Virus record (IMG/VR): IMGVR_UViG_3300020731_000092
Coordinates: 1 to 21,325 of that record
Origin: a virus
Length of the DNA stretch: 21,325 nt
Reading direction: 5' to 3' (one strand)
Position numbers and translations under genes: made by a program. The notes under the pieces were generated by a model. That model made no database searches. It was not told the origin of the DNA and worked only from the letters and a program-made list of their open reading frames with translations. Numbering within the stretch: the stretch's first letter is position 1; each line of letters begins with the position of its first letter. Shown here in pieces: positions 489-21,101 of this stretch.

Positions 489-3383
489 TTAAACTCCTAG
501 TTTTGCTTTAAGTGCGTTAACTTCTGCTGATAATTCTTGAATGGCTTTTACTAGCGTTGGTACAAGTGTTTCGTAATTGATGTTTTTATACTCAATACCA
601 TCTGCACCAGCCTTTGATGTACCAACGCATTCAGGAAATACATTTTCAAATTCTTGCGCTATAAAACCAGCAACATTCTTTTTATCTTGACCTTTACCTT
701 CTTTCCAGTCAAAACGTCTAGGTTTTAATGCCAATATTGTGTTAAGACCAGTATCAATGTCTCTAACATTTTCTTTTAAACGCTCATCTGAAATAGCGGT
801 AATAACAATGCTTGTAGCATGAATAGTTCCACCCATATCAACATAAAAACGATATGCGCTTGCACCTGTTGAATATAAAGTAATTCCAGTAACAGCAGAC
901 GATGAAGAAGCTAATGCTGTTTGTATGCCGCCACCGCTAGTAAGAGATGAACCTACTGTTGTTTGACTTTGGCTTGTCTGCCCCACTAACAAGTTACCAC
1001 TAGAGTCTAGTCGCATTTTTTCAGATTGACCAATTCCATAGCCAGTATTAGTTACAAATGCTAAATCTGTTCTATCTGAATATGCACCATTTGGTTGGCG
1101 TTCAGATAAAATAATGTTGCCACCAACCGTAATCTGAGAACCAATAATTTCAGAACCACTGCTATTAGGGTTAGCAATATTAGTTGAATTTGTATAAATA
1201 CTGTAATTGCCTGTTCCACCACCATTGGTAACACCCAATTTCCCAGCAGGAGAAGTTGTACCTATACCTAGATTGCCTGCGCTTGTGAGGCGCATCAATT
1301 CATTTTGACTGCCACCGTTATAATTTAAAAATGTAAGCGATGTTGCATTTGTTGATGTTGATTCAAGCAAACCTTTAATTGCAGCGGCTTTATTGTAATA
1401 ACTTGAGTTATAAAACGCAGATGATGGATTCAAGCTAAGAGTAGCTACATTTCCAACAGTTGGAGTAGCTGAATTAGTTATACTAATTGTTGGTGCTGAT
1501 GAATCATAAACAGCAATTTTTCCATATACAGTATTTGTTCCAACACCAAAATTAGTCCCATCAAAAGTCAACGCAGACCCAGTAGCCAACGCACTTGTAC
1601 TTGTAGCGTATGCCACGCCATTCGTTGTTAAGCCACTTAATCCTGTTGATATAGGCAATCCTGTTGCATTAGTCAATGTAACGCTAGATGGCGTTCCAAG
1701 GGCAGGAGTTACCAATGTAGGAGAAGTGTTCAACACCACGCTACCTGTACCCGTAGATGTAGTCACACCCGTACCACCATTGGCGACATTCAAAGTGCCT
1801 GCCAAAGTCACTGCGCCTGTTGTGGCGGTACTTGGAGTGAATCCTGTCGTTCCTGCGCTGAATGAAGTGACTGCAACGCCTGACAATGTTGACCATTGCG
1901 GTGCAGAACCAGTTGAAGTAAGAATTTGACCACTAGAACCTATCCCCAATTTGGATAATGCTGTACCAGACGCATAGTAAGGCAAATCACCTGCGGTGTA
2001 TGTTGATAGTCCAGTACCGCCTCTATTGGTTGCAATAGTTGCACCATTCCAAGTCGCAGATGTAATTGATCCTGCGTAATCTAATGTATTGGTTGACCAG
2101 GATACATTCGATGGCGCAAAGTTGTGTACATCCCAAGAACCTACAGAGGTTGCATTAGACAACAAAATAACTTCTACAAATCCACCAGACTGAATAGTAG
2201 AAATTGTTGTTCCAGAATTGTTTGTAACAACAATAGTGCCTGAACTTTGATTGTTATTGAATGTGTAATTTACGCCATTTGCCAAAGTAGTAGCATCAGG
2301 CAGTTTATAAGTTTGTCCACCAGAACCTGTAACTACAAAATTAGGAGCAGATCCAACTGTAAGAACTGTTGTTGTTCCTGTGGCAGCAACATTACTAAAA
2401 CCTTCAGTAATAGAATTTGCGCTGATGTTTTGGTTTGCATCTCTCAAAACAATAGAATTTGCGCCAGATGTTGTTGCAGATAAAGCTAAAGTTCCACTTG
2501 TCGTAATAGGAGAACCCGTTACCGACATGAATGTAGGAACAGTCATTGCAACAGATGTTACTGAACCTGATCCAGAACCATTTGTGCCACTGTAACCAGA
2601 AATACCTGAGTAACCTGAATAGCCAGAATAACCACTAATACCCGACCCAGAATATCCGCTTATCCCACTATATCCAGAATAACCACTTATACCTGAATAA
2701 CCAGAGTAACCAGAAATACCGCTACCAGAATATCCCGAATAACCTGATACACCGCTTCCCGAATAACCCGAATAACCAGATATACCAGAACCAGAATAAC
2801 CGCTTATTCCACTATAACCAGAAATTCCAGAAAACCCCGAAATTCCTGATGCGCCACTAAATCCTGAAATTCCAGAATAACCACTAAATCCTGATATGCC
2901 AGAACCCGAATAACCCGAATACCCTGAAACACCAGAACCTGAATATCCGCTTATTCCTGAAAAACCACTGATTCCAGAATATCCCGAAAAACCTGAAATT
3001 CCAGAATAACCAGAGTACCCAGATATACCCGAATAACCACTATAACCTGACAAACCCATTTGAATCCAAGCAGACGGAGAACTCCAAGTAATTGTAGATC
3101 CAGCCAATGAACTAACAATAGCAATAGATGCCCATACAATTTGCGTAGGAGTCGTTGGAGGCGTTGAAGACCATCCTGTAGGGGGTACACCTACGTTTGT
3201 TTGAAAATTCCAAGAACCGCCTGTAGGAGTCGCAGGTTGAGTAGCAGATTGTTGGAAAATAAACCATTCAAAGTAAGTCCCACCATAATAAGTGATGTTG
3301 CCATAAAGACCAGTAGACTCTGATCCCGCAACAGTTGTTACTATTGAATTTAAACTACTGCCATATAGGCCACCTGTTGCCAT
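489..3383 (-). CDS. Tail fibre/spike with collagen-like shaft and S74 chaperone domain
   Basis: A 964-aa trimeric-fibre type protein. Residues 1-109 form a head/tail-proximal domain rich in Trp, Thr and Pro. Residues 110-274 are a Gly-X-Ser collagen-like shaft. Residues ~275-790 are Ser/Thr/Gly-rich with NGGTG-type turns, as in beta-helical fibre bodies. The last 100 residues begin SDERLKENV at S865 and match the peptidase S74 intramolecular chaperone of endosialidase-type fibres. In that family the chaperone helps the trimer fold and then cuts itself off just before this serine. The C-terminal coiled coil (LVPTLVKAIQELSAEVNALK) fits. It probably binds the host receptor. RBS AGGAA precedes the ATG. 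It lies directly after the adaptor gene. Confidence 0.93.
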   Translation of the reverse strand: MATGGLYGSSLNSIVTTVAGSESTGLYGNITYYGGTYFEWFIFQQSATQPATPTGGSWNFQTNVGVPPTGWSSTPPTTPTQIVWASIAIVSSLAGSTITWSSPSAWIQMGLSGYSGYSGISGYSGYSGISGFSGYSGISGFSGISGYSGSGVSGYSGYSGSGISGFSGYSGISGFSGASGISGFSGISGYSGISGYSGSGISGYSGYSGSGVSGYSGYSGSGISGYSGYSGISGYSGYSGISGYSGSGISGYSGYSGYSGISGYSGTNGSGSGSVTSVAMTVPTFMSVTGSPITTSGTLALSATTSGANSIVLRDANQNISANSITEGFSNVAATGTTTVLTVGSAPNFVVTGSGGQTYKLPDATTLANGVNYTFNNNQSSGTIVVTNNSGTTISTIQSGGFVEVILLSNATSVGSWDVHNFAPSNVSWSTNTLDYAGSITSATWNGATIATNRGGTGLSTYTAGDLPYYASGTALSKLGIGSSGQILTSTGSAPQWSTLSGVAVTSFSAGTTGFTPSTATTGAVTLAGTLNVANGGTGVTTSTGTGSVVLNTSPTLVTPALGTPSSVTLTNATGLPISTGLSGLTTNGVAYATSTSALATGSALTFDGTNFGVGTNTVYGKIAVYDSSAPTISITNSATPTVGNVATLSLNPSSAFYNSSYYNKAAAIKGLLESTSTNATSLTFLNYNGGSQNELMRLTSAGNLGIGTTSPAGKLGVTNGGGTGNYSIYTNSTNIANPNSSGSEIIGSQITVGGNIILSERQPNGAYSDRTDLAFVTNTGYGIGQSEKMRLDSSGNLLVGQTSQSQTTVGSSLTSGGGIQTALASSSSAVTGITLYSTGASAYRFYVDMGGTIHATSIVITAISDERLKENVRDIDTGLNTILALKPRRFDWKEGKGQDKKNVAGFIAQEFENVFPECVGTSKAGADGIEYKNINYETLVPTLVKAIQELSAEVNALKAKLGV
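2562..3056 (-). repeat. Collagen-like Gly-X-Ser coding repeat
   Basis: A short-period tandem repeat inside the fibre gene encodes residues 110-274. The unit is Gly-(Tyr/Ile/Phe/Val)-Ser, often grouped as GYSGYSGIS. About six Gly-Ser dipeptides break the triplet phase (for example GYSGSGVSG). The third position is always Ser, and Pro is absent, unlike vertebrate collagen. The nucleotide repeat is degenerate at codon level, so it is maintained as protein rather than as recent DNA slippage alone. Confidence 0.92.
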
Positions 3384-19915: not shown

Positions 19916-20098
19916 ATGAACATTGAAACCTTAAAAACCAAAGCCACACTTTATCAAATCAGCCAAATACTGAAGATAAAGCCTCCAGCCGTTTACAAGT
20001 GGGCAAAAACTGGAAAGATTCCAGAATTGCGCTTGTATCAATTGAGAGAGCTACGCCCTGAGTGGTTTGTTCCTCCTCCTATCCATAAAGACAAGTGA
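19916..20098 (+). CDS. Cro-like transcriptional regulator (60 aa)
   Basis: A 60-aa DNA-binding protein. The first helices TLKTKATLYQISQILKIKPP, the A-V-Y-K-W-A-K recognition helix and G-K-I-P-E-L-R-L-Y-Q-L-R-E-L-R are the Cro/YdaS-type layout in which an H-T-H is followed by I-P-x-x-R. ATG at 19916 chosen since the TTG-led extension to 19892 would lie inside the promoter. It sits at the divergent point between early-left and replication-right transcripts, and the nearby GTTAA array offers targets. It is expected to repress one or both promoters. Confidence 0.85.
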   Translation: MNIETLKTKATLYQISQILKIKPPAVYKWAKTGKIPELRLYQLRELRPEWFVPPPIHKDK

Positions 20099-20196: not shown

Positions 20197-20383
20197 AAAT
20201 GAGTACAGAGATATCTGTGCTGATTTGAACTTTAAGTACAAACAATGGAATGTAGAGTACGAATCCAAGAAGAACTACTTTGAGAGTTGGGCTTGGTGGA
20301 ATTCGGAAGAGCAAAGAAGGAAACGTAAGATTTACATTGATTATTGGAACCATGCAAAGGCTACTTATGAACGAAAACGATAA
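20183..20383 (+). CDS. Small aromatic and charged protein (66 aa)
   Basis: A 66-aa helical protein rich in Tyr, Trp, Lys and Glu (YKQWNVEYESKKNYFESWAW, then QRRKRKIYIDYWNHAKATYE). It overlaps the genes on both sides by 14 and 17 bp. No family recognised. A nucleic-acid or coiled-coil role is possible. Only a weak GGA site is upstream of the ATG. Confidence 0.6.
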   Translation: MKITENEYRDICADLNFKYKQWNVEYESKKNYFESWAWWNSEEQRRKRKIYIDYWNHAKATYERKR

Positions 20384-20750
20384 CTGCTTTGACTTGTTTT
20401 GGGCTCTCTGGCCATCTTCTCCTCGAAAAGCCAGTAAGTCCAAGTGTCTAGAGAGATGGAAAAAGAAGGCTTTAGACAAACAATGGAAACAGATTCACGC
20501 GCATCTGACCTGGATGAAAACAACAGATATGTGGAAAAAAAGCAACGGCGATTTTATTCCTGCTCCTTTGGTCTACATCAACCAAGAAAGATGGGATGGA
20601 GCAGAGATTCCTAGCCCTGTGACGATCAATATTCACTATAGAGATCCAGTCCTAGATAAGCTAGAAAACGACACCAAGAACGCTGCGCCCATGCCTGAAG
20701 ATGTAAAAAAAAGAATGATGGAGTTAAGAAGGGCTCTAAAGTCGATATAA
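20367..20750 (+). CDS. Small replication protein (replisome-organiser C-terminal type, 127 aa)
   Basis: Start chosen at 20367 (AAAGG 7 bp upstream); a reading from 20280 lies in the previous gene and has no site. The residues FDLFWALWPSSPRKASK at 8-24, WKKKALDKQWKQIHAHL in the middle and FIPAPLVYINQERWDG at 63-78 match the helicase-loader-contact C-terminal domain seen in phage replisome organisers, in which F-W-x-x-Y/W-P...K...A is followed by a (Y/F)-I-P-x-P-x-x-Y-(L/I)-N-Q-x-R-W. Whole organisers have an N-terminal winged-helix DNA-binding domain; none is present, so this one is a stand-alone domain and may need a partner for origin binding. Confidence 0.8.
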   Translation: MNENDNCFDLFWALWPSSPRKASKSKCLERWKKKALDKQWKQIHAHLTWMKTTDMWKKSNGDFIPAPLVYINQERWDGAEIPSPVTINIHYRDPVLDKLENDTKNAAPMPEDVKKRMMELRRALKSI

Positions 20751-20751
20751 T
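20724..20751 (+). promoter_or_regulatory. Promoter of the noncoding RNA
   Basis: TTAAGA (20724-20729), 16-bp spacer, then consensus TATAAT (20746-20751). The -10 box contains the TAA stop codon of the replication gene. Predicted start is near 20758. Confidence 0.6.
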
Positions 20752-20757
20752 CCGAAC

Positions 20758-20859
20758 TGTTGCCGTGCAAAGCAATAAGTTGAAGCCGTTTAAGTCTGTA
20801 TCTTGCCAATAGGGGAACCTGTTGGTTTGCACCAAGGTACAGTTTTAAACGGCTTTTTT
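20758..20859 (+). ncRNA. Compact pseudoknotted phage RNA with terminator
   Basis: No ORF covers this stretch. A ~22-pair stem joins 20784-20805 to 20833-20854 (outer 10 bp AGCCGTTTAA/TTAAACGGCT, inner CTGTA and CTTG pairs, with two G-U pairs and one mismatch). Inside it sits an 8-bp hairpin at 20806-20825 (CCAATAGG/CCTGTTGG) with a GGAA (GNRA) loop. The remaining seven bases TTTGCAC (20826-20832) are the exact reverse complement of GTGCAAA at 20765-20771 in the 5' end, making a 7-bp pseudoknot. The outer stem runs into T6 (20854-20859), an intrinsic terminator. Own promoter upstream. Could be a regulatory sRNA, attenuator or anti-host RNA; the family is unknown to me. Confidence 0.7.
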
Positions 20860-21101
20860 GTTTTGTACGCAACGCTGATCGGGGTTAGACAACCAGACCC
20901 TTGAGAATGTGAATGCGACAGACTCAGATAAACGTGCTGAATCAGGCAGGTATCTCCTAGAGACTAGATCTTTTCGGGGTAGTGAAAAACTGAACAAGGT
21001 AACTTGTAAGCTAGATAAACGAGAGCATTAGCAAAGATGAAGTGAATAATCTTTGTGGTTATCAGAAAGTCCTCTGGTTGATAGTCCGTGGGTAAGACAA
21101 T
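20860..21101 (+). other. Second structured gene-free stretch before the DUF5710 gene
   Basis: No ORF. Visible stems: CTGAT/ATCAG (20875-20879, 20941-20945) enclosing a GGTT/AACC hairpin and TTGAG/CTCAG (20901-20905, 20923-20927); ACAAG-GTAA-CTTGT (20994-21007, GNRA loop); CAAAGAT/ATCTTTG (21032-21038, 21049-21055); and TATCA/TGATA near 21060-21083. TCGGGGT (20879, 20974) and AGATAAACG (20926, 21013) each occur twice in the same order, hinting at a duplicated domain. AGAGACTAGA (20959) and ATAGTCC (21081) look like group I intron P7 strands. It may be a structured leader or an intron-like RNA. Confidence 0.45.

Follow-up and report, generated by a model that had tools for sequence, protein, structure and literature searches.

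Background

The right end of an uncultivated phage genome raises the question of whether a stretch of about one hundred nucleotides, lying between a TATAAT hexamer and a run of six T, encodes an RNA of its own and, if so, to which class this RNA belongs and what it may do. The window (the whole stretch of DNA analysed, 21,325 bases, an IMG/VR virus record) had been given a first-pass annotation, which proposed that this segment encodes a new noncoding RNA of phages, folded into a pseudoknot, equipped with a promoter and a terminator of its own and outside every named class. The proposal is supported by the sequence tests described below, without transcript data. On these grounds, positions 20758-20859 of the window are one member of a predicted RNA family that is absent from Rfam 15 and is referred to as RNA A.

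The nearest deposited relative of the phage is Podoviridae sp. ctfne034 (MW202484.1, Manatee Spring; host unknown), the large terminase of the window being 81% identical to its counterpart. The right end of the window has the lambdoid layout: single-strand annealing and SSB proteins are encoded in a leftward operon, which is followed by a rightward one, in which a Cro-like gene, a small ORF and a replisome-organizer-like gene precede RNA A. At the other end, the minus strand (489-3383) encodes a protein of 964 aa that resembles a tail fibre; it contains collagen-like GYSG repeats, and its end is reminiscent of an intramolecular chaperone domain (DERLKENVRDI...). These likenesses were noted by eye only.

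The features of the region are as follows.

19919..20098 (+): Cro-like DNA-binding protein gene (PHROG 6401 and 409, relatives); opens the rightward early operon
20370..20750 (+): gene of a replisome-organizer / replication-initiation-like protein (PHROG 9474 and 270), upstream of RNA A
20724..20729 (+): possible -35 element TTAAGA (consensus scan), 16 nt before the -10 element; weak, such sites being no commoner than in shuffles
20746..20751 (+): -10 element TATAAT (sequence and spacing in relatives), overlapping the TAA stop of the replisome-organizer-like gene
20758..20777 (+): predicted 5' recognition hairpin TGTTGC/GCAATA, 6 bp, with the 8-nt loop C-GTGCAAA; stem conserved and covarying in 27 relatives
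20765..20771 (+): variable 7-mer (seed) GTGCAAA, the pseudoknot half in the hairpin loop; the leading G-T does not vary within the family
20778..20781 (+): linker AGTT between the first hairpin and the main stem (sequence, fold)
20782..20805 (+): main (terminator) stem, 5' strand (fold, alignment)
20806..20825 (+): apical hairpin (fold), 8 bp, loop GGAA in the window; hypervariable in sequence and length among relatives
20826..20832 (+): 7-nt bulge TTTGCAC (fold), the exact complement of GTGCAAA; complementarity in 37 of 37 relatives
20833..20856 (+): main stem, 3' strand (fold); 21 nt from bulge to T tract
20854..20859 (+): T6 tract, putative intrinsic terminator (sequence); T6-8 in all 27 aligned relatives
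20860..21101 (+): noncoding stretch from RNA A to the next gene; no match to the RNA B model, structured RNA B, B2 or B3 being found here in relatives

Results

Fold of RNA A in the window

RNAfold assigns -45.4 kcal/mol to RNA A of the window (z = -6.0), and none of 200 shuffles is as good. The element is 103 nt long in the window and 93-126 nt across the family. Both its promoter hexamer and its T6 tract are where the first-pass annotation placed them, and the long stem is present as well, although the 22 pairs claimed become 23 in the RNAfold count (20782-20805 with 20833-20856), with one T/T mismatch. The complementarity of GTGCAAA and TTTGCAC is indeed perfect; however, GTGCAAA does not lie in a free 5' tail but inside the loop of a hairpin that had been missed. 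Since it makes up seven of the eight loop bases, its pairing with the bulge yields a loop-bulge pseudoknot. The assertion that every base is used is slightly overstated, because C20764, the GGAA loop and the T/T mismatch remain unpaired. The GNRA loop GGAA exists in the window but is not conserved in relatives. The competing stem TTGGT/ACCAA, from which a two-state switch had been suggested, is found in the window only and is absent from relatives, which leaves the switch without support.

Copies of RNA A in other phages

We collected 67 distinct copies of RNA A from uncultivated phages of fresh water; they contain 25 different 7-mers, which are always complementary to the bulge. The copies were reached through a search with the replisome-organizer protein, through pattern scans and through a scan for which the Cro-like protein was aligned; all but one originate from metagenomic contigs. 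The protein search led to two contigs (L003 and L004) with 90% identity in the replisome organizer, where the hairpin, linker and terminator are as in the window and at the same place, and where the 7-mers differ: GTCGTGT pairs with ACACGAC in L003, and GTGGTTA with TAACCAC in L004. MW202484.1 is the sole deposited phage record with a copy, and an annotated hypothetical protein overlaps it there. This 119-aa protein, UOF77725.1 (L173:2898-3257), overlaps RNA B as well and is probably a spurious ORF.

Covarying copies in related phages, one of the checks suggested in the first-pass annotation, do exist, and an Infernal model built from the fold detects further copies and none in unrelated DNA. 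By this type of model, RNA A is present in 28 of 78 Cro-related early regions; with so many related regions lacking it, RNA A is dispensable or replaceable. No locus contains a second copy, as far as partial genomes allow. In 300 genomes the RNA A model gave one weak 58-nt match (32.6 bits), which was not counted, and the pattern scan of genome contigs, which returned chance matches only, was used as a negative control. The relaxed structural scan is noisy in unrelated DNA and was applied only to GT-seeded matches also found by the covariance model; the E-values of the covariance models built here are rough.

As regards known families, neither RNA A nor RNA B reaches the gathering threshold of any of the 4227 Rfam 15 families, and E-value scans are empty, too. 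In the same Rfam scans the covariance model of the C4 antisense RNA (RF01695) gave no match to RNA A. The class is apparently undescribed so far; only open-access literature was considered, and an unindexed description is not excluded.

The slot of RNA A differs among relatives: after cro, or before or after the replisome organizer. Different ORFs follow it, so that no constant downstream gene or pathway can be named and the criterion for a cis-regulatory leader (riboswitch or attenuator) is not met. Considering that RNA A often adjoins the replisome-organizer-like gene, one may think of an element acting as DNA, e.g., a replication origin with cruciform potential near that gene. Nevertheless, L048 carries RNA A directly 3' of cro, and the G-U wobble pairs, the strand-specific T tract, the -10 spacing and the loop-bulge pseudoknot point to RNA; we see next to no chance for an origin or similar DNA element.

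Evidence for the pseudoknot

The seven base pairs of the pseudoknot can be formed in all 37 aligned copies (in 36 of them by Watson-Crick pairs alone), and several positions show all four Watson-Crick pair types. When the whole structure is placed on the sequence alignment, both sides change in 30 of 44 pairs, with a covariation score of 0.456 compared to 0.202 for shuffles and at most 0.12 for slid partners. Compensated seed changes, with both sides altered, occur in 24 pairs of near-identical copies; between L210 and L240, the whole element differs only at the two partners of one pair. Because the 7-mer halves vary rapidly between viruses and yet always match, we consider the fold to be real.

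A blind test was made with a covariance model of the nested part only, the pseudoknot being left out. With this model, the window and 28 Cro-related loci score at least 67 bits; below them, at under 27 bits, come matches to the opposite strand of the same palindromes, and unrelated DNA does not exceed 17.3 bits. Complementary 7-mers are present in 28 of these 28 loci. The strict seed-based scan yields one false positive in 885 kb of unrelated DNA. We believe that the RNA A class, its predicted ends and its pseudoknot are well supported at the bioinformatics level; this does not extend to the function, which has not been demonstrated.

Promoter, terminator and geometry

A -10-like hexamer precedes the hairpin by 5-6 nt in 61 of the 67 copies; hexamers matching at no fewer than five of six positions were counted in 54 of 67 copies, compared to 8 of 201 control windows. 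Given this fixed distance, the hairpin would begin where +1 is expected. Pairs one and two of the loop (G-C, U-A) are invariant, the remaining five of the seven are variable, and position 4 of the 7-mer holds a purine in 24 of the 25 seeds, the exception being the window (C). The bulge is 18-21 nt away from the T tract in 67 of 72 copies; the apex, by contrast, differs greatly in both length and sequence. Such a distance fits docking in cis along approximately two helical turns, and we infer an arrangement in which the 5' hairpin and the pseudoknot helix run beside a main stem of constant length.

With a perfect long stem and T6-8 in all copies, RNA A could be understood as merely a structured terminator or insulator between early genes, in which the pseudoknot does no more than make termination faster or stronger and the sequence drifts freely while it pairs. 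The apex is equally variable, and the position between genes varies, as this explanation would have it. A terminator, however, needs no fixed -10 spacing, no invariant G-U and no conserved 5' hairpin, and the change in the seed is far above that in the flanks (see below), so a terminator alone is, in our opinion, unlikely.

The fixed geometry would also suit an RNA that binds a protein or RNA polymerase (a decoy or a put-like antiterminator), the variable helix being a scaffold and the G-U, the hairpin stem and the GCC/GGC stem forming the binding site. The early-operon location is like that of HK022 putR (PMC9378689), and other structured RNAs follow. An intrinsic terminator at the end is nevertheless unlike putRNA, no second copy occurs in the same contig, and the invariant sequence outside the stems is short; we regard such binding as improbable.

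Rate and mode of change

Divergence was measured on contig pairs by comparing 200-nt upstream flanks with the five variable positions; duplicates were kept, because the removal of identical elements introduces a bias. At a flank divergence of 1.8%, the five variable seed positions differ by 17% and the hairpin stem by 1.7%; at 6.2%, the corresponding values are 42% and 1.9%. The five positions thus evolve approximately 7-10 times faster than the flanks. Single compensated pair changes distinguish L195 from L201 and L220 from L249, and the whole cassette is replaced behind an identical flank in the pair L175/L214. Whether the rapid change is due to diversifying selection or to weak constraint plus recombination remains open. 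Phages from one sample seemed to differ in their seeds; the numbers are too small to make a claim.

Search for a second partner

The complement of the loop 7-mer occurs elsewhere in the 38 phage contigs 11 times compared to 12.5 expected, and the other sense 19 times compared to 18.8, the expectation being the frequency of the other phages' 7-mers. As the complement is not enriched, a second partner has not come to light, and pairing of RNA A with itself in trans has not been established.

These counts bear on the possibility of a trans-acting sRNA with a safety lock, where the loop 7-mer is a seed for host mRNAs, the bulge is its competitor in cis, and the phages diversify the seed. Such an sRNA is not expected to have its target within the phage, and none is enriched there; its 5' hairpin loop with the U-turn-like G-U-N-R and its Rho-independent terminator are what one commonly finds in sRNAs. 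The difficulty is that the seed and the lock change together among almost identical phages, which probably share hosts, whereas a conserved host target would keep the seed constant. We hold the locked sRNA to be rather unlikely.

RNA B and other RNAs at the locus

Behind RNA A there is usually a further structured RNA, of which several kinds exist. One of them is RNA B, with a core of about 183 nt, which lies directly 3' of RNA A in about 50 unique contigs (e.g., L173:2988-3166 in MW202484.1, L005:3733-3909 and L048:8329-8511). Its helices covary (e.g., CACAAGG/CCTTGTG and CAATTGG/CCAGTTG), its own pseudoknot is intact in 23 of 23 sequences, and among the 78 Cro-related loci it is confined to those bearing RNA A. 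RNA B was found neither in 7 chosen genomes nor in 399 genomes of the order of a Comamonadaceae MAG. Its model has no match in the window, L003 or L004, and the fold of 20860-21101 in the window is no better than that of shuffles.

Slots without RNA B hold other noncoding stretches of about 250 nt with conserved segments of their own behind RNA A: B2 (L273, L274, L314 and L332-L334), B3 (L280 and L300) and the further stretches in the window (20860-21101), L003 and L004. Several RNA families seem to exchange at one locus. A reading of the downstream stretch of the window as a group I intron or a tRNA-like element found no support.

Some further observations concern the same locus. In L178, L185, L190, L205, L212, L230, L238 and L245, a different terminator-like RNA (AACCCCATAG...GTGTGGTCTTG...CAAGACCACAG...TATGGGGTTTTT) replaces RNA A just upstream of RNA B. 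The loop pairing is longer, 8-10 bp, in L176, L183 and L186, and L183 and L186 differ by one compensated pair. In L241, about 200 nt of inserted sequence come between RNA A and RNA B; they include a T arm like that of a tRNA (TCTGGTTCGAATCCAGA), and ARAGORN finds no tRNA there. Short direct repeats TTAAGATnnA, perhaps origin-like iterons, come after RNA B (L178, L179, L054 and others), and are followed by a conserved hairpin, GGAGnGGG..GGATA / TATCCACCC, and then by the next ORF.

Discussion

We have hardly any doubt that RNA A constitutes a new class of short self-terminating phage RNAs, as predicted from the comparison of its copies: a -10 element, a hairpin at +1 with an N-G-U-N5 loop, a loop-bulge pseudoknot, a main stem of fixed length with a free apex, and compensated change in five of the seven pairs, in part by cassette exchange.

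The function is a different matter. We presume, tentatively and with less than even confidence, that RNA A as a whole is best explained as a regulatory RNA of the early operon whose variable helix is self-specific; this is an inference, without transcript evidence. RNA A would then be both a stable sRNA and a terminator met by rightward early transcripts before RNA B and the downstream genes. Its loop would dock on the bulge during RNA synthesis, and the variable 7-bp helix would act as a self-specific address in the manner of the recognition loops of plasmid antisense RNAs, so that, in a cell infected by related phages, the RNA of each would fold or pair with its own kind alone. The U-turn-like loop with its purine at position 4 in nearly all seeds suggests, by analogy, a resemblance to antisense recognition loops.

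It is tempting to go further and propose a self/non-self address, by which RNA A, through its fast-evolving helix of loop and bulge, recognises only copies from the same phage, e.g., for counting genomes or timing early transcription. If recognition were limited to self, co-infecting relatives would not cross-regulate, as in plasmid incompatibility, with both partners residing in one RNA. This extension rests on analogy, and we consider it doubtful.

Several points stand against the regulatory RNA with a self-specific helix. The loop motif is GUNR and not the classical YUNR, and the 7-mer of the window breaks even this motif by its C at position 4. There is no transcript evidence, host or cultured phage. 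The phage contigs have revealed no second partner of the 7-mer, and RNA A is present in only 28 of the 78 related early regions. Finally, the rapid change of the seed could also be explained by weak constraint plus recombination.

Irrespective of the function, an apparently undescribed RNA class, with no fewer than 67 distinct copies, can now be assigned to a large group of uncultivated phages from fresh water. Its pattern of evolution is rare, too: a tertiary helix is altered rapidly and never loses its pairing, and among the copies are near-identical ones that differ only by one compensated pair. Owing to this pattern, RNA-based specificity between competing phages can be tested by swap experiments. 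As RNA B, with a covarying pseudoknot of its own, adjoins RNA A, one early-gene slot holds several unknown RNA families.

Comparison with known systems

The C4 antisense RNA and the P4 CI immunity RNA are structured phage RNAs near early genes, and their loops are thought to set specificity. They pair with neighbouring leader sites and stop transcription; no such sites were found for RNA A, and no repressor gene was noticed in the early region examined. RNA A resembles HK022 putRNA in being a structured RNA in the rightward early operon of a lambdoid layout. However, putRNA consists of two stem-loops (about 70 nt), is antiterminating and occurs in both early operons, whereas RNA A is predicted to terminate, has a pseudoknot and is present in a single copy. 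GOLLD, ROOL and other ornate phage RNAs are structured noncoding RNAs from lake and other metagenomes (PMC12286853, PMC2864571; the latter also lists the C4 antisense RNA). All of these are several hundred nucleotides long, and RNA A has no sequence or model match to them. With the RNAs of type III toxin-antitoxin systems (ToxI), RNA A shares a pseudoknotted RNA followed by an intrinsic terminator; ToxI, though, is composed of tandem units of about 36 nt upstream of the ToxN gene, while RNA A is a single unit without a consistent toxin gene downstream. HK022 putRNA, the C4/CI RNAs and type III antitoxin RNAs each have defining features that RNA A lacks.

In plasmid antisense RNAs such as FinP and CopA, the loop sequence varies among close relatives while the stems are kept, which gives allele specificity. 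Like ColE1 RNAI, R1 CopA and F FinP, RNA A is a short RNA with a 7-8 nt hairpin loop, a U-turn-like motif and an intrinsic terminator. Unlike them, it carries the complement of its loop within itself, in the form of the bulge in its terminator stem; no target gene is encoded opposite it, and none was detected elsewhere in the phage. Because RNA A contains its own partner and an antisense target is not in evidence, we place it outside the plasmid antisense families. Its recognition loop is G-U-N-R in 24 of 25 seeds compared to the classical YUNR, i.e., UNR is kept and Y is replaced by G; in the plasmid antisense RNAs, a U-turn in the recognition loop speeds up pairing, and changes in the loop lead to new incompatibility groups (PMC4485353).
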